Shown here: in pieces, positions 4,106 through 18,109 of the stretch
Numbering within the stretch: the stretch's first letter is position 1
How the letters are laid out: the number at the start of each line of letters is the position of its first letter
Source of the DNA: a virus
Strand: one strand, 5' to 3'
DNA length: 20,516 bases
IMG/VR virus record: IMGVR_UViG_3300024062_000083
Coordinates: 1 to 20,516 of that record
The notes under the pieces: generated by a model
Databases searched by the model: none
Seen by the model: the letters and a program-made list of their open reading frames with translations, nothing else
Told to the model about the DNA's origin: nothing
Program-made: the position numbers and the translations under genes

Positions 4106-4109
4106 CGGG
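4093..4109. terminator. Inverted repeat between convergent genes, possible weak terminator
   Basis: CCCGC (4093-4097) can pair with GCGGG (4105-4109) across a 7-base loop. It covers the portal stop codon and abuts the stop of the minus-strand cluster at 4110. No T-run follows on either strand, so it does not meet the usual intrinsic-terminator pattern. The convergent placement is the main argument. Confidence 0.25.
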
Positions 4110-4226
4110 CTAACCCCAAAACACCCTATAAATAAACTCAACCACAACAGCCACTATTACACCAATAGCGACACCAGTAAAGCCAGCGGCAAGGAAGCCG
4201 ACAGCAGCGAATAGTAGGTACATCAT
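4110..4226 (-). CDS. Small single-span membrane peptide (38 aa)
   Basis: A 38-residue minus-strand frame starting MMYLLFAAVGFLAAGF and ending EFIYRVFWG. It is almost entirely hydrophobic with spaced glycines (GFxxAGFxGVAIG), as expected for one transmembrane helix with a short C-terminal aromatic/basic tail. The ATG overlaps the stop of the preceding 20-codon frame as ATGA, and an AAAGGTG Shine-Dalgarno-like stretch lies just upstream. The coherent hydrophobic composition argues against chance. It is the last gene of the minus-strand cluster. Function is unknown; small membrane peptides of this kind in phages can act in lysis control or superinfection exclusion, but nothing here decides. Confidence 0.5.
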   Translation of the reverse strand: MMYLLFAAVGFLAAGFTGVAIGVIVAVVVEFIYRVFWG

Positions 4227-4285
4227 TCATCACCTTTTTGTTGTTCACTAGCAATCAGCTTTCTAATGTAATTTCTTACGGTCAT
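4223..4285 (-). CDS. Possible 20-residue peptide in the minus-strand cluster
   Basis: A very short frame (MTVRNYIRKLIASEQQKGDE) whose ATG overlaps the preceding stop as ATGA. Its own stop overlaps the next start in the same way. A GGAAGG stretch lies immediately upstream. It may be a real micropeptide or a translated linker that couples the flanking genes. Length alone makes it uncertain. Confidence 0.3.
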   Translation of the reverse strand: MTVRNYIRKLIASEQQKGDE

Positions 4286-4491
4286 AGCCTTCCAGTAAGG
4301 TATGGGCGTGACGGAGCTTTCCTTCTGTAAGTTCTGCCTGATAACCAATCAGGTTTCGGCGTATCCCTCCGCGCCAAAGTTCTTCCACTAACGCCTAAAG
4401 CAATAGCAAATTCCCTGGTGGTTATGTTCGCATTCTTTGGCAGCACAGCTAGCCAATTAGGTATCTTGCTTGGGGCTTCAGTCCTTTTCAT
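4282..4491 (-). CDS. Small helix-turn-helix protein, possible excisionase/AlpA-like regulator (69 aa)
   Basis: A 69-residue basic protein. Residues about 25-43 (TTREFAIALGVSGRTLARR) read as a helix-turn-helix of the MerR/excisionase/AlpA type. A wing-like basic stretch (SGRTYRRKAPSRPY) then runs to the C-terminus. An AAAGGT sequence lies a few bases upstream of the ATG. It is encoded opposite to every large gene in the window and sits second among the larger ORFs of a compact overlapping cluster. A DNA-binding regulator is the most likely role; excisionase versus transcriptional control cannot be separated. No integrase is in view to support excision. Confidence 0.55.
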   Translation of the reverse strand: MKRTEAPSKIPNWLAVLPKNANITTREFAIALGVSGRTLARRDTPKPDWLSGRTYRRKAPSRPYLTGRL

Positions 4492-4546
4492 TACTTTTAC
4501 CTTTTTTGTTGTAAACCATTAATGAGTCCGTTCTAACCTTTATCAT
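4478..4546 (-). CDS. Possible 22-residue peptide in the minus-strand cluster
   Basis: A short basic frame (MIKVRTDSLMVYNKKGKSNE followed by KD). Its ATG overlaps the stop of the 63-residue gene as ATGA, with a GGAG eight bases upstream. It ends 14 bases inside the following helix-turn-helix gene. The ribosome binding site and stop/start overlap make translation plausible. It may serve mainly to couple translation of the next gene. Confidence 0.33.
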   Translation of the reverse strand: MIKVRTDSLMVYNKKGKSNEKD

Positions 4547-4734
4547 TTTAATATCTCCATATCATTAATAAAGTTGTTTTTATCCATATCATGCACAAAC
4601 GCGCTGATTTTCTTTCCCTGCCTATTGTTTTTATTGGCGTGTTGTCTGTACCACCTAAGAGAATATCCCATATGAGCGCAAAACTCGTTTAGATTATATC
4701 CCTTGTCGCGTATTTTTCTTGTAACTGGATTCAT
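4543..4734 (-). CDS. Small putative DNA-binding regulator (63 aa)
   Basis: A 63-residue protein. Its region around residues 8-35 (IRDKGYNLNEFCAHMGYS then LRWYRQHA) has the spacing of a small Cro-like helix-turn-helix, followed by a basic segment and an acidic/hydrophobic tail. The start has an excellent AGGGGG Shine-Dalgarno five bases upstream. It is the first gene of the minus-strand cluster. Upstream lies a predicted promoter whose spacer and start region carry three copies of a TGCAAATGA-like repeat, so autoregulation by this protein or the following HTH protein is an obvious inference. No specific family is recognised with confidence. Confidence 0.5.
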   Translation of the reverse strand: MNPVTRKIRDKGYNLNEFCAHMGYSLRWYRQHANKNNRQGKKISAFVHDMDKNNFINDMEILK

Positions 4735-4746
4735 TGTAACCCCCTG

Positions 4747-4786
4747 TTATTTGCATCATTTGCATTACCATACATCATCATTTGCA
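4747..4786 (-). repeat. Three direct repeats TGCAAAT(G/A)A, candidate operator
   Basis: On the minus strand TGCAAATGA occurs at 4786-4778 and at 4764-4756, and TGCAAATAA occurs at 4755-4747. The first two extend to an identical 11-mer, TGCAAATGATG, spaced exactly 22 bases (about two helical turns), which places them on one DNA face. The copies lie within the spacer and near the expected transcription start of the predicted promoter. They are candidate binding sites for one of the small HTH proteins. Confidence 0.45.
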
Positions 4787-4795
4787 CTAAGCCAA
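4767..4795 (-). promoter_or_regulatory. Predicted sigma70-type promoter of the minus-strand cluster
   Basis: Reading the minus strand, TTGGCT (4795-4790) and TATGGT (4772-4767) are separated by exactly 17 bases. Each matches the consensus in four of six positions. The start of the 63-residue gene follows about 33 bases downstream. Direct repeats sit in the spacer and just after the -10, as operators often do. Confidence 0.4.
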
Positions 4796-4843
4796 GTATT
4801 ATTTTGAATATGGGTTATGAAGTGTTAAAATAAACCAACTGTA

Positions 4844-4858
4844 CGCGACAGTATCGCG
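4844..4858. other. Short perfect inverted repeat upstream of the scaffold gene
   Basis: CGCGA (4844-4848) and TCGCG (4854-4858) flank a 5-base centre, just before a TATAAA (4861-4866) and 29 bases before the scaffold start. It could be an operator or a small RNA hairpin in the scaffold leader. The TATAAA has no convincing -35 partner, so a + strand promoter here is only weakly supported. Confidence 0.3.
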
Positions 4859-4886
4859 GCTATAAATACCTTTTAAGGGCAATAAC

Positions 4887-7646: not shown

Positions 7647-9284
7647 ATGACTTGTCAATCAGTCGCGCAAGATATAACAAACGCTGTAGCGGTAACGAGT
7701 GCGGTTGACTCTGATAACTTCGCGCTAGTGCGTAACGGTACATTAAACAGCATTTCATTTGCTTCAATGTCGTCTAGTCTTGGCGTAACGGGTCAGATTA
7801 AAAGCGTAGGTTCACCCACAGCGGTACAGATACTCAATCAACCTTCTGGTGAGCTTAATTTTATTCGTGCCCTAGCGCCTTCACAGGGGATAACAGCAAC
7901 GCTTGACCCATACGGTAGCGTGGCACTCAAAACGAATTTAGCTAACGCCGGAAGCGCATCTGATGGCGCTAATGTTATTGTTGACTCAACAGCAGCGCAG
8001 GTTGCATTTAAGCGCATAAAGGCAGGCTCTAACGTTAGCATTACGCAAACAGCTAATTCAGTTGAAATTACAGCGGGTAATATTGAGGACTTGCAAAACA
8101 GGGTAGTAGTTACGCAAGCCTCAGACTTGGCTGGTGTGCTTGATAGTACCAAGCAGTATTTTATTGATGGTATTATTGATATGGGTAGCCGATCAATAGA
8201 TGTTCCTTCGGGCGGCTTAAATTTGGCGGGTTACAGCTTTGACATATCTAAGCTTATATCTTCCGAGACTGGCTATACAATGTTCACATCACCGGTTGGC
8301 GGGTCGGGCAACTTGATTGGTTCTGACTATGCGGTTGAAGTAACTGGCGCAGCCTCGCAGGTCTATAACTTAACGTCGGCCACGGGCTTTGATGCTTTTG
8401 AGTTTGCGCGTATTAATTACAACGATTGCACATCACTAGGCACGATTACAGGTTACAGGCAGGGCTTAGAAGTAGGTACTGGGCGGTTTGGTGGCAAGCC
8501 AGAGCTAACGCTTGCAGGGGCTTGGGTTGGTGGTTATTTCATTGATACATCAATAGTTAGAGGCTTAACAGACGGTGCTTACTCGCTTTTTAAAGCTGGT
8601 GCTGGCTTCACTATGGCATCGAGGTTTAGGTCTAACCAAAACATTGACCTAAATGCTACGGTATCATTTTTTGACTTTGCCCCGGCTAATTTTATTAACC
8701 CGTCAACGGTTTCTATTGAAAGCGCAATAATTACAAGAAATGGGGTGTTTAACTCCCAAGATGCAAACATAACCCCAAATATGAGCAATTCGGATTTAGT
8801 GGCTGCATGGTCGGGTAATAATGGTATGCCTAACACCTTCGAGGGCGGGCATATAGAGGTGACAACAGAAGCGGTTAGCACCATAACAACGGCTGGCGTA
8901 TTTGTTGATGTAGAAGCGGGCTTATGGACATCTCAAGATTTACAGCACTTTGATAACCCAGCAGGCGGGCAATTAAGGCATTTAGGCAATACGCCAAGAG
9001 AGTTTAAGGTCATAGCCGATTTCTTGATTGATGGAACGCCGGGTGATGATATATCCCTACGGGTTACTAAATGGGATGATTCGGCATCGTCTTTTGTGAC
9101 AGTGCTAGACCAGACGAGGGAGGTTAACAGTTTTCAAGGTGGCAGGGATGTTGCTTTTTTCAACATAAATATCAATACAACGCTAGATCAAAACGATTAC
9201 ATTAAGTTGCAAGTTGCAAACGTTGCCACTACAAACAATATTACCGCAGAGGCAGACAGCTATTACATAGTAGAGGCTAGGTAA
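7647..9284 (+). CDS. Fibre-like virion protein, candidate receptor-binding protein (545 aa)
   Basis: A large beta-rich protein encoded between the gp4 and gp10 equivalents, where P22 has no gene of this size. Three regions are visible. Residues 1-150 are a Ser/Ala/Asn-rich shaft with short repeats such as AFKRIKAGSNVSITQTANSVEIT, as in trimeric fibre stems. Residues about 150-400 look like a parallel beta-helix, with many short strands and turns (VPSGGLNLAGYSFDISK, GYRQGLEVGTGRFGG). Residues about 400-545 form a compact beta domain (GGHIEVTTEAVSTITT through EADSYYIVEAR), suggestive of a jelly-roll C-terminal knob. It shares its last base with the next start (TAATG). A tail fibre or side fibre is most likely; a decoration or head-fibre role is possible. 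Confidence 0.6.
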   Translation: MTCQSVAQDITNAVAVTSAVDSDNFALVRNGTLNSISFASMSSSLGVTGQIKSVGSPTAVQILNQPSGELNFIRALAPSQGITATLDPYGSVALKTNLANAGSASDGANVIVDSTAAQVAFKRIKAGSNVSITQTANSVEITAGNIEDLQNRVVVTQASDLAGVLDSTKQYFIDGIIDMGSRSIDVPSGGLNLAGYSFDISKLISSETGYTMFTSPVGGSGNLIGSDYAVEVTGAASQVYNLTSATGFDAFEFARINYNDCTSLGTITGYRQGLEVGTGRFGGKPELTLAGAWVGGYFIDTSIVRGLTDGAYSLFKAGAGFTMASRFRSNQNIDLNATVSFFDFAPANFINPSTVSIESAIITRNGVFNSQDANITPNMSNSDLVAAWSGNNGMPNTFEGGHIEVTTEAVSTITTAGVFVDVEAGLWTSQDLQHFDNPAGGQLRHLGNTPREFKVIADFLIDGTPGDDISLRVTKWDDSASSFVTVLDQTREVNSFQGGRDVAFFNININTTLDQNDYIKLQVANVATTNNITAEADSYYIVEAR

Positions 9285-14345: not shown

Positions 14346-15353
14346 ATGGCACAGTATGATTTTTACAACCCCGCTAATAGGGGGGCTGGTGTAAAAGGCG
14401 CAATCGCAGCAACTAGCAGCTTATTTGACGGCATTGAGGGGCGCAAAATAAACGCCATGAAGATTATGGGTGTGGAGGATGCCCAGCGTAGACAAGCAAT
14501 GACAGATGATGCCAAGACAGCGGAATTATTAATCAGAAATGGCGATACGCAGGGGGCGATGGACTTTCTTAGCGGAAGGGCACAAGATTCATCAATGAGC
14601 GGAGGAAACCCACGCGAAACAATGGAAGTCTATAACGCCTTACGCGCTGGTGACGTTGATGGTGCTTTAGGTATGATTGGTAATTACAGGTCTTTATTTG
14701 ATGATAGTTACAAAGCACCAGAAACAAAAAAACAGTCGGATAAACAAAAAGCAGAAGGTGGTATGGTCTTTAATCCAAACACTGGCACTTATTCTATAGA
14801 CCCAACTGCAGCAAGTAGATTAGATGCAATTGCAGCTAAGAAAAAAAGCGGGGAGGCGCTGTCACTGAAAGATAAGCAGTCTATCAACAAGGACATTACT
14901 GGGTTTCTTAAAGACACAACATTAATACACAATACTGCTAACGACCTATCTAAGTTACAAAAAATGCCTAGTGGCCCTGCGTCAATTGCTCTTGTTTTTA
15001 AATTTATGAAGGCGCTAGACCCTACGTCAGTTGTTAGAGAGGGTGAGTTTTCAACGGCTCAAAACTCTGCTGGCGTCCCAGAAGGCATAAGAAATATGTA
15101 TAACAAGCTTGCAAGCGGTGAAATACTAGGTGGTAAGCAGATACAGCAATTTGTTGACACAGCACAGGGGCTGTCAAACTCTGCAATTGAATCCTCTCGG
15201 ACTCAAATAACTGATTATCTTGATACTTATGGGGATAGCCTGCCCGATAAATTCTCAACATCAATCATGAGGCGCATACCTAAAACATTTGAAATTAACC
15301 AGCCTAGTGCAAACGTCATTAAATTTGATGTCAATGGAAACCAAATACCATGA
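14346..15353 (+). CDS. Putative internal virion protein (335 aa)
   Basis: A 335-residue, largely helical protein. It begins AQYDFYNPANRGAGVKGAIA and has small helical repeats around residues 50-115 (AELLIRNGDTQGAMDFLSG, ALRAGDVDGALGMIGNY). A Lys-rich linker follows, then a C-terminal domain with LVFKFMKALDPTSVVREGEF and AQNSAGVPEGIRNMYNKL near residues 215-255. That DPTSVVREGE...AQNSAGVP pattern recurs in phage ejection/internal proteins. AGAGGT lies seven bases upstream of the ATG. The gene follows the gp20-like gene by 9 bases and overlaps the gp16-like gene by ATGA. It is an extra ejection-type gene relative to P22. A role in DNA ejection is inferred from context and motif. Confidence 0.6.
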   Translation: MAQYDFYNPANRGAGVKGAIAATSSLFDGIEGRKINAMKIMGVEDAQRRQAMTDDAKTAELLIRNGDTQGAMDFLSGRAQDSSMSGGNPRETMEVYNALRAGDVDGALGMIGNYRSLFDDSYKAPETKKQSDKQKAEGGMVFNPNTGTYSIDPTAASRLDAIAAKKKSGEALSLKDKQSINKDITGFLKDTTLIHNTANDLSKLQKMPSGPASIALVFKFMKALDPTSVVREGEFSTAQNSAGVPEGIRNMYNKLASGEILGGKQIQQFVDTAQGLSNSAIESSRTQITDYLDTYGDSLPDKFSTSIMRRIPKTFEINQPSANVIKFDVNGNQIP

Positions 15354-17056
15354 GTATTAGAGCAGAGCTATCAGATGGTAGGGTGTTAGAGTTTCCAGAT
15401 GGGACAGACCCGCAGGTTATACAGGCTACCGTTAAAAGGGTGATTGGTCAGGGTCAATCTAAGGCTGGCGTGACACCTAAAGAACCTACAGAAGAAGCCG
15501 GCATTATGTCAGGCGCGTCGGATTTAGAGAAATCTATTATTGGCGGCATAGAGAATGCAGCAAGCTTTGGCTCTAGTATGATAGCAGAACCTTTGGCGGG
15601 GCTTGCAGGGATAGTTCAATCAGCGAACCCATTTGCCGAACAAGGCGCAGGTGCTAGAGCGGTTGAATCTGTCAGAGACTCGTTGACATTTAGACCGTCA
15701 ACTGATGCAGGCGTTAGTCAACAGCAAGCAATTGGTGAAACACTTGCGCCAGTAGGTGAGGCCATATCTAACACTGAGAAGTTTTTAGGTGATAGCACTT
15801 TAGAAGCAACAGAGGGCACTATCTTTGAATCGGCTGGGCCTTTACTTGCTACGATGGCGCACACGTTACCAACGGCGGCGCTTGAAATTCTAGGCTTTAA
15901 AGGGGCTGGGAGGCTTTCAAAAGTTAAACCTCCTAGTAATAATTTAATCAAAAAAACTTTGGTTGAGTCAGCCCCAGAAAACGCGCAAGTCAGGAAGGCG
16001 GCCAGCGTACTATATAAAGAGGTTAATGATTCCGGTGCTGTAGTTAAAAAAACATCACTAGGGCGACTTGAGAATGCACTTGATGTGCTGGCTAAAAAAG
16101 AAGGCATTAGAGAAGGTGTTTCAGACCCAGTATTTAGATCGATCAACGCCATAAAAAAAGATATTAATAGGGGCGTTCCAATTCCAATCAATGAGATTAC
16201 AGACCTAAGAAAAATAGCTCAAAACGCTGTAAACCCAATGGATAAGAATATAACAAGACAGGCATTGCTAGTTTTAGACGAGGTTGACTCTTTTATTGCT
16301 GATATTAACGTGAACGATATGGCCAGGACTGGGAACATACAAGCATCAGACATATCCAAAAAATTAAATGCTGCTGGTAAGCTTTACGGCAGGGCTAAGA
16401 GGGCTGAAATGCTAGAGGAGGCCATTACAATTGGCGCTAGCAGAAAAGCTGGAATAGACAAAGGAATTAGAAACGAACTTAACAGGTTAATAAATAATAA
16501 AACAACCAGAAAGTTTCTATCTAAGGATGATATCGCAGCAATAAGAAAAGTAACTGATGGAGATTTCAAGCAGAATTTTGCCTCTTTGGTTGGAGGAATG
16601 GGCATTAAATTTGAAAACAGCCCTAGCGTATTCTCTGCAATGGTTAGTGGTGCGGGTACTGGTGGAGTTGCCGCCTCTCTTGGCATGAGCGGAGCGGCAC
16701 TTCCCGTTGCTGTCACAGCCGTTACGGTAGGAACCGCATCAAAGATAATCGCAAACAAGCTGGCGAGAGGCAATGCCAATTTCTTAAAAACAATGCAATT
16801 AGCTGGCAATGACGCGAAGAAAATAACTAAAGCTTACTTGGAAATTGTTCCTAAAAGTAAAAGGAGCTTATCTGACCTGTCTGACTTGCTTTTAGATCCA
16901 AATATAGACCTAACCACGCTGGAAAATATAGCGAGTGATACAGTCAAAGATGCGGTAAAGGCAGCTCAATTTAAGCGAGAGATGGCTAAGTTTATGGCTA
17001 CAGTTCCATCTGGCGCAGCTATATCATCTAAAGATGAGGTAGAAGATAATGAATGA
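15350..17056 (+). CDS. DNA transfer (ejection) protein, gp16-like
   Basis: A 568-residue protein near the length of P22 gp16 (609), last in the ejection cluster. It opens with RAELSDGRVLEFPDGTDPQV then IQATVKR, a beta-hairpin plus helix that is common at the N-terminus of ejected phage proteins. Gly/Ala-rich amphipathic segments follow (GGIENAASFGSSMIAEPLAG near residues 64-83; GPLLATMAHTLPTAALEILG near 164-183). A strongly hydrophobic stretch near 430-470 (MVSGAGTGGVAASLGMSGAA, then LPVAVTAVTVGTASKIIANK) could insert in a membrane. The remainder is basic and helical. No lytic transglycosylase motif is visible. It should cross into the host inner membrane during ejection. Confidence 0.65.
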   Translation: MSIRAELSDGRVLEFPDGTDPQVIQATVKRVIGQGQSKAGVTPKEPTEEAGIMSGASDLEKSIIGGIENAASFGSSMIAEPLAGLAGIVQSANPFAEQGAGARAVESVRDSLTFRPSTDAGVSQQQAIGETLAPVGEAISNTEKFLGDSTLEATEGTIFESAGPLLATMAHTLPTAALEILGFKGAGRLSKVKPPSNNLIKKTLVESAPENAQVRKAASVLYKEVNDSGAVVKKTSLGRLENALDVLAKKEGIREGVSDPVFRSINAIKKDINRGVPIPINEITDLRKIAQNAVNPMDKNITRQALLVLDEVDSFIADINVNDMARTGNIQASDISKKLNAAGKLYGRAKRAEMLEEAITIGASRKAGIDKGIRNELNRLINNKTTRKFLSKDDIAAIRKVTDGDFKQNFASLVGGMGIKFENSPSVFSAMVSGAGTGGVAASLGMSGAALPVAVTAVTVGTASKIIANKLARGNANFLKTMQLAGNDAKKITKAYLEIVPKSKRSLSDLSDLLLDPNIDLTTLENIASDTVKDAVKAAQFKREMAKFMATVPSGAAISSKDEVEDNE

Positions 17057-17207
17057 TACAATAAAAACCGCGCAACTTAATATTTGTCTGCTTTCTTTTA
17101 TTTCAATTTTTTTGGAATCCATTATGCCAGCCTTAAATATGTTAAAAAATAATTTTAGATTGCTTTCTAATGAAAAGCAAGGAGGTGCCCCATCCCACGT
17201 TTTATAA
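17049..17207 (+). CDS. Possible small hydrophobic peptide overlapping the spike start (52 aa)
   Basis: A 52-residue frame whose ATG overlaps the end of the gp16-like gene (ATGAATGA). It runs through the spike ribosome binding site, stopping at TAA 17205-17207. Residues 10-32 (LNICLLSFISIFLESIMPAL) are hydrophobic; the tail NEKQGGAPSHVL encodes the Shine-Dalgarno of the next gene. Translation of this frame would bring ribosomes to the spike start, which lacks a standard codon. It may be a real membrane peptide or only a coupling leader. No homologue is recognised. Confidence 0.35.
   Translation: MNDTIKTAQLNICLLSFISIFLESIMPALNMLKNNFRLLSNEKQGGAPSHVL
17179..17194 (+). promoter_or_regulatory. Strong ribosome binding site followed by ATC instead of ATG
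   Basis: AAGGAGGTG (17179-17187) is an almost perfect anti-16S match. Six bases after GGAGG comes ATC (17192-17194), in frame with the spike. The in-frame codons between the upstream stop TGA (17171-17173) and the ATC include no ATG, GTG or TTG. This site decides the spike start. Confidence 0.7.
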
Positions 17208-18109
17208 ATCCAGTACCAGGGTTTTCATACCCACCTTACGGAAAACTTTACTTTTACAAGTCAGGCACTAACAGCTTATTGACTACGTATAAAGACGACT
17301 TAGAAACCATAGCAAACACTAACCCTGTTGAGCTTGGCGCTTTAGGTCGAGTGCCAAACACCTTTTACACTGGCAAAGCTAGAGTAGTATTGCAAGATGC
17401 TAACAGTCAGCAAGTGTGGGAACGTGACCCTGTAGGCGGTGAAGGCGCTTTAGGTGACTTTGAAGTATATGACGAGACAGTTGTATATGACAAAGATGAT
17501 ATCGCCAAAACCGCCTTAGGTGTGTTCTACATATCGCTGCAAGACACCAATCAAGGTAATGACCCAACGCTAACGCCTAATGCAAATTCATTCTGGATGG
17601 AAGTCAGATTCATTGATGTTTACAACAGTCAGAAGCCTTATTCAACTGGTGATATCGTACAATCAAATGAGGGTTATTTGTGGCGCTCAATGGTTGATGC
17701 CAACCTATCAAATGAGCCTACAACTGATACCGGTACAAACTGGCTACCTGCTTTAAATGGGGCTAAGTTGCCAGAGGTAATGGCGTTAGAATCATCACTG
17801 GGCACCTTCTCAGCGAATAGCGTAACAGTCATACCACAAACTGGTGGCGGCGTGTTAACAGCTTTACGCATTAACGAGATTCAAGACGGTGGTGCGTACA
17901 CATTGCCGGCAGCTAGCAGCATATCAGTTAATCAAACTATTCAAATAGATTTGCCAGACGCTTATAAAACTTTTAAGCCTGTTATATCTCGCTCAGGAAG
18001 TGATACAATAAGCTATTCAGGCGGCACAGATACCAGTATTACTATGGACTCTGCATCTAGCGAGTCAATTACATTAAAATCCGACGGAATAAGCGATTGG
18101 GAGCTATAA
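17192..18109 (+). CDS. Short tailspike with P22-type head-binding domain, non-canonical start
   Basis: With an ATC start the product is 305 residues. It opens (M)PRFINPVPGFSYPPYGKLY, then FYKSGT...TTYKDD...NTNPV...GRVPNTFY and ending VWERDPV near 80. This is the classic P22 tailspike head-binding domain, which docks the spike trimer to the tail. The next standard start (TTG, 17279) would delete 29 conserved residues, so it is rejected. Residues about 98-190 contain two modules, the second YSTGDIVQSNEGYLWRSMVD...PTTDTGTNW, resembling small CBM5/12-type carbohydrate-binding folds. The last 110 residues are a beta-rich Ser/Thr domain ending DGISDWEL. There is no large depolymerase beta-helix as in P22 (666 residues). 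It may be an adaptor or simple receptor-binding spike. Confidence 0.78.
   Translation: MPRFINPVPGFSYPPYGKLYFYKSGTNSLLTTYKDDLETIANTNPVELGALGRVPNTFYTGKARVVLQDANSQQVWERDPVGGEGALGDFEVYDETVVYDKDDIAKTALGVFYISLQDTNQGNDPTLTPNANSFWMEVRFIDVYNSQKPYSTGDIVQSNEGYLWRSMVDANLSNEPTTDTGTNWLPALNGAKLPEVMALESSLGTFSANSVTVIPQTGGGVLTALRINEIQDGGAYTLPAASSISVNQTIQIDLPDAYKTFKPVISRSGSDTISYSGGTDTSITMDSASSESITLKSDGISDWEL

Follow-up and report, generated by a model that had tools for sequence, protein, structure and literature searches.

The window analysed here is a stretch of viral DNA of 20,516 nucleotides (IMG/VR record IMGVR_UViG_3300024062_000083), in which a head-binding tail fibre or spike gene lies on the plus strand downstream of a gene for a 568-amino-acid homologue of phage ejection proteins (15350..17056, plus strand). 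Between them lies a small ORF of 52 codons (17049..17207, plus strand), which runs from an ATG at 17049 to a TAA at 17205-17207, so that it begins within the end of the upstream gene and extends over bases 1-16 of the tail gene. The tail gene (17192..18109, stop codon 18107-18109) comprises 305 codons when read from an ATC at 17192..17194, the proposed initiation codon, and its frame is open from a TGA at 17171-17173 to 18109. Following this upstream stop, the codons of the tail frame are TGA(17171) AAA GCA AGG AGG TGC CCC ATC(17192), and no ATG, GTG or TTG is present in frame between TGA 17171-17173 and the conserved N-terminus of the tail protein. The first conventional in-frame start is a TTG at codon 30 (17279..17281), which has a weak Shine-Dalgarno (SD) sequence (-2.7 kcal/mol). 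Initiation there would delete the conserved N-terminal KLYFYKSG, which corresponds to the first predicted beta strand of the head-binding domain.

Upstream of the ATC, an extended SD sequence, AAGGAGGTG, is located at 17179..17187, with six bases between GGAGG and ATC. In another frame, an ATG at 17170..17172 (MKSKEVP...) is in frame with a CCC-C run at 17188..17191. The preliminary description of this DNA had placed ATC 17192 six bases past GGAGG, AGGAGG at 17180-17185 and a third frame of 52 residues across the site, and had stated that the tail frame lacks ATG, GTG and TTG from the 17171 stop to the conserved N-terminus; the codon listing and the small ORF bear out all of these points.

A podovirus tailspike head-binding domain is assigned to the tail protein because the profile of its family matched two solved structures, the head-binding domain of tailspike 7eeq (E 3.7e-15) and the tail spike chains 9vyg (5.6e-10). 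A Pfam search with the tail protein gave no match, and the only PHROGs match was to a family of unknown function. Because the AlphaFold model was weak (mean pLDDT 53.7), it was consulted only for the first strand. Given its length of 305 residues and the lack of a recognised enzymatic domain, the product is more safely called a "head-binding tail fibre or spike protein" than a "spike". Elsewhere in the window, the portal gene is separated from the following forward gene by a gap of 780 bases (4106-4886) that contains two reverse-strand ORFs (4282-4518 and 4543-4746), which by eye resemble small DNA-binding proteins.

Start codons of homologous tail genes

In the homologous locus L003 (86% identical), the gene begins with ATG CCA AGA TTT ATA AAT CCA, compared with ATC CCA CGT TTT ATA AAT CCA in the window, and DNA similarity between the window and the L003 contig restarts exactly at 17192. 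Codons 2-30 of the two genes differ by seven synonymous and one non-synonymous changes, which argues that this N-terminus is translated as protein. An ATG is also the aligned start in L007, L008, L060 and other homologues. Since nearly all homologues carry ATG at this position and the codons behind it are under protein-level constraint, 17192 marks the ancestral start, the ATC being derived.

Start codons were compared in loci from the pattern scan described below, from a profile search (80 viral and 2 genome loci) and from 17 cultured-phage or named-virus regions, which left 100 distinct contexts after removal of duplicates. ATG was found in 95 contexts, ATC in three, and GTG and TTG in one each; the weak ATC codon is not kept among orthologues, most of which use ATG. 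A scan of IMG/VR with a degenerate pattern of the N-terminus, allowing any ATN as first codon, returned 15 loci with 12 ATG (including L061, which may not be a tail gene) and three ATC starts, and no ATA or ATT. No ATC start was found among cultured phages, the annotated start being ATG or GTG in each of the 17 cases compared, and prophage relatives in genome contigs amounted to only two loci, one with a clear ATG start. In Pseudomonas phage PAE2 (L074, OK041467), the head-binding domain of the tail protein is unannotated and an antisense ORF is listed over the region. As no forward gene is annotated there, PAE2 was considered as a cultured parallel and rejected, its start being a plain ATG. 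The sole TTG of the census belongs to L112 (UViG_3300032212_000054), where the tail gene begins GCAGGAGCAATAATT TTG ACT AGA; this locus comes from the same sample as L050, one of the loci with an ATC start.

For other genes of the window whose homologue aligns from codon 1, this codon is ATG or GTG. The terminase gene (434-1876) is listed with a TTG start at 434, which is probably wrong, as the alignment with the L003 contig suggests an ATG at 440, two codons in.

The three cases of ATC at the start of the tail gene are the population of the window, L058 and L050. The first is also represented by a separately assembled contig, UViG_3300024518_001076, which covers the whole window (20.5 kb), has the same ATC and differs by three bases, two of them 16 bases or less from the contig edge and one at 8191. 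As both contigs may come from related samples, their independence is good, although not complete. L058 differs from its sister L055 (the same contig as L046) within the first 30 codons by four synonymous and no non-synonymous changes, the only coding change being ATC versus ATG at the start, so that the ATC of L058 most likely arose separately from that of the window. An out-of-frame ATG lies four bases upstream of the ATC in L058, which makes a one-base assembly error there conceivable. The case of L050 is weaker than the other two, since another ATG, in frame but without an SD sequence, lies 33 bases upstream of its ATC.

Shine-Dalgarno sequence and overlapping small ORF

The match to the anti-SD sequence extends beyond AGGAGG to the nine bases of AAGGAGGTG, which occurs a single time in the window when both strands are searched. 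With a duplex energy of -12.7 kcal/mol with the 16S tail, it is the best among 20 gene starts of the window, the next reaching -9.7 kcal/mol, and only about 0.03% of sampled background windows upstream reach this value. Among the 259 ATC triplets of the plus strand, ATC 17192 is the only one with an SD pairing of -10.3 kcal/mol or lower. A long SD sequence at proper spacing (-12.7 kcal/mol, six bases) is thus present before a non-canonical AUN codon. Within the family, the three ATC starts rank 1, 2 and 8 of 100 in SD strength (-12.7, -10.3 and -8.4 kcal/mol), compared with a median of -5.6 kcal/mol for ATG starts; the p value of this comparison (Mann-Whitney p = 0.002) is optimistic, since the census sequences are related.

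In both the window and L058, the small ORF has its stop codon at tail-gene bases 14-16; in L050 it is the upstream gene that ends, with a TAG, four bases before the ATC. Small hydrophobic ORFs of about 40-52 codons lie between the ejection-protein and tail genes in the window (17049-17207) and in L040 and L042-L046, where they overlap or abut both neighbours and share a TTAAATAAA-like core. Counting the window, seven phages have a small frame open at this position, the other six being related by the upstream gene. No family match was obtained for the small hydrophobic ORF, and no sequence homologue of the 52-codon ORF was found beyond the same population; the relatives share its position and open frame. 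Stop-start overlaps are known to favour coupled re-initiation, which is strengthened by an SD sequence (PMC2268962), and coupling to the small ORF perhaps contributes to initiation of the tail gene.

Initiation at AUC and alternative explanations

We consider it highly likely that the tail gene is initiated at AUC 17192, a very rare start codon, the weak codon being offset by the extended SD sequence and possibly by coupling, and that its ancestral start was ATG. Initiation at ATC was the first of two explanations in the preliminary description, and it is now well supported by the homologous ATG, the conservation from codon 2 onwards, the strongest SD sequence of the window and the ATC in two further phages. 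The ordinary initiator tRNA would read AUC 17192 and insert formyl-Met, followed by Pro-Arg-Phe. AUC and the initiator anticodon form a C.C mismatch, and this third-position mismatch would be compensated by the nine-base, well-spaced SD sequence. Ribosomes finishing the 52-codon ORF a few bases downstream may in addition re-initiate at the AUC. The change from ATG to ATC would have occurred in the lineage of the window, separately in that of L058 and probably also in that of L050. No phage-encoded tRNA able to read AUC as an initiator was detected by ARAGORN in the sequence searched. The C.C mismatch speaks against an AUC start, as does the disfavouring of weak third-base pairs by IF3 in cell-free work (PMC10158994). 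From these data, we infer that the AUC start is used with a yield below that of AUG; that it sharply limits spike expression, as had been proposed, is plausible. A more far-reaching idea, which is possible but doubtful, is that this podovirus family repeatedly moves its receptor-binding tail gene to an AUC with an extended SD sequence and a stop-start overlap, as a translational rheostat tying the supply of tail protein to the IF3 level or initiation state of the host.

The same start could have a different cause, namely selection acting on the overlapping small ORF, with the ATC as a mere by-product. C 17194 is the second base of a Ser codon (TCC) of this ORF, which an ATG would turn into Cys; the window and L058 read Ser-His there, L046 with its ATG reads Cys, and seven phages have the frame open at this position. 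Apart from this, however, the small ORF is not conserved at its C-terminus, and L050 has ATC without such an overlap; we regard this cause as improbable.

It is somewhat less probable still that ATC is a loss-of-function change that destroyed the start, so that little protein is produced, or solely a shortened version initiated at TTG 17279. In favour of this, AUC initiates weakly and populations can carry defects, but the gene is otherwise intact and under constraint, the strongest SD sequence of the window would be superfluous for a dead start, and ATC is found again beside strong SD sequences in other phages. For the truncated form, the TTG has only a weak SD sequence and the first head-binding strand would be lost.

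The second explanation in the preliminary description, a programmed +1 frameshift in the manner of prfB with a start at ATG 17170, slippage at CCC-C and stimulation by the internal AGGAGG, received no support and is very unlikely. The frame relation is right, and a run of four C follows AGGAGG after two bases. However, the donor ATG lacks an SD sequence (+0.4 kcal/mol), the codon after CCC is CAT and not a stop, and relatives have a plain ATG. The arrangement is also not transferable to the other ATC cases, as L058 has no CCC-C and the slip frame of L050 is closed by a TAG directly before CCC. We therefore judge the CCC-C site not to be used.

An assembly or sequencing error at 17194 is the least probable explanation. 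The contigs are metagenomic, but the separately assembled contig and two different phages have the same codon. ATG at 17192-17194 in close relatives had been named as an observation that would speak against an ATC start; it was found in different phages only, whereas the same population keeps ATC, which points to ancestry rather than to error.

Comparison with known systems

The prfB frameshift site shares with the tail gene an internal SD-like AGGAGG ahead of a pyrimidine run. In prfB, an in-frame stop (UGA) is needed after the slip codon, and the spacing of 3 and the CTTT are almost universally conserved (PMC12421855). In the tail gene, in contrast, the slip codon is not followed by a stop, the upstream frame has no initiation site of its own, and the arrangement is not conserved. 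The prfB type has an SD-like element about 3 nt before the slippery run; in the tail gene, AGGAGG lies 2 nt before CCC-C, with CCCC in place of CTTT.

Closer parallels are genes with AUN starts. The gene of IF3, infC, can start with AUU, AUA or AUC; in S. aureus an AUA is combined with an extended SD sequence (PMC13009471), and in Streptomyces the start is ATC (PMC5472188). Unlike the phage tail gene, for which such a loop is not known, infC is a cellular gene autoregulated by its own product. Also alike in combining a weak AUN codon with an extended SD sequence are cvfC1 (AUU) and ccpN (AUA) of S. aureus, where the yield from AUU or AUA next to an extended SD is about 10-30% of that from AUG (PMC13009471). 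The weak codon of ccpN is conserved between species, whereas most members of the phage family keep ATG. Streptomyces sigR starts with GTC beside a AGGAGGTG ribosome-binding site, and its expression is below that of an ATG version and is repressed by IF3 (PMC5472188). While the product of sigR is a regulator whose level is held under that of its antisigma partner, the tail gene is structural and its codon is AUC.

The combination of a non-AUG start with an extended SD sequence is hence already known in bacteria. That the tail gene adds a further case, with a recurrence within one phage gene family that is unusual, is well supported by the sequence comparisons. In the literature searched, of which coverage was incomplete, no phage tail gene with an AUC start was found described. 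For annotation, gene finders limited to ATG, GTG and TTG would remove 29 residues from the tail protein, including the virion-attachment strand. As ATC occurs three times within a single phage gene family, beside a strong SD sequence every time, these cases provide a natural test of how far an SD sequence can offset a weak start. If AUC is truly used, the few known cases, which in the literature searched were all cellular genes and for the most part regulators, would be extended by a structural gene of a phage.
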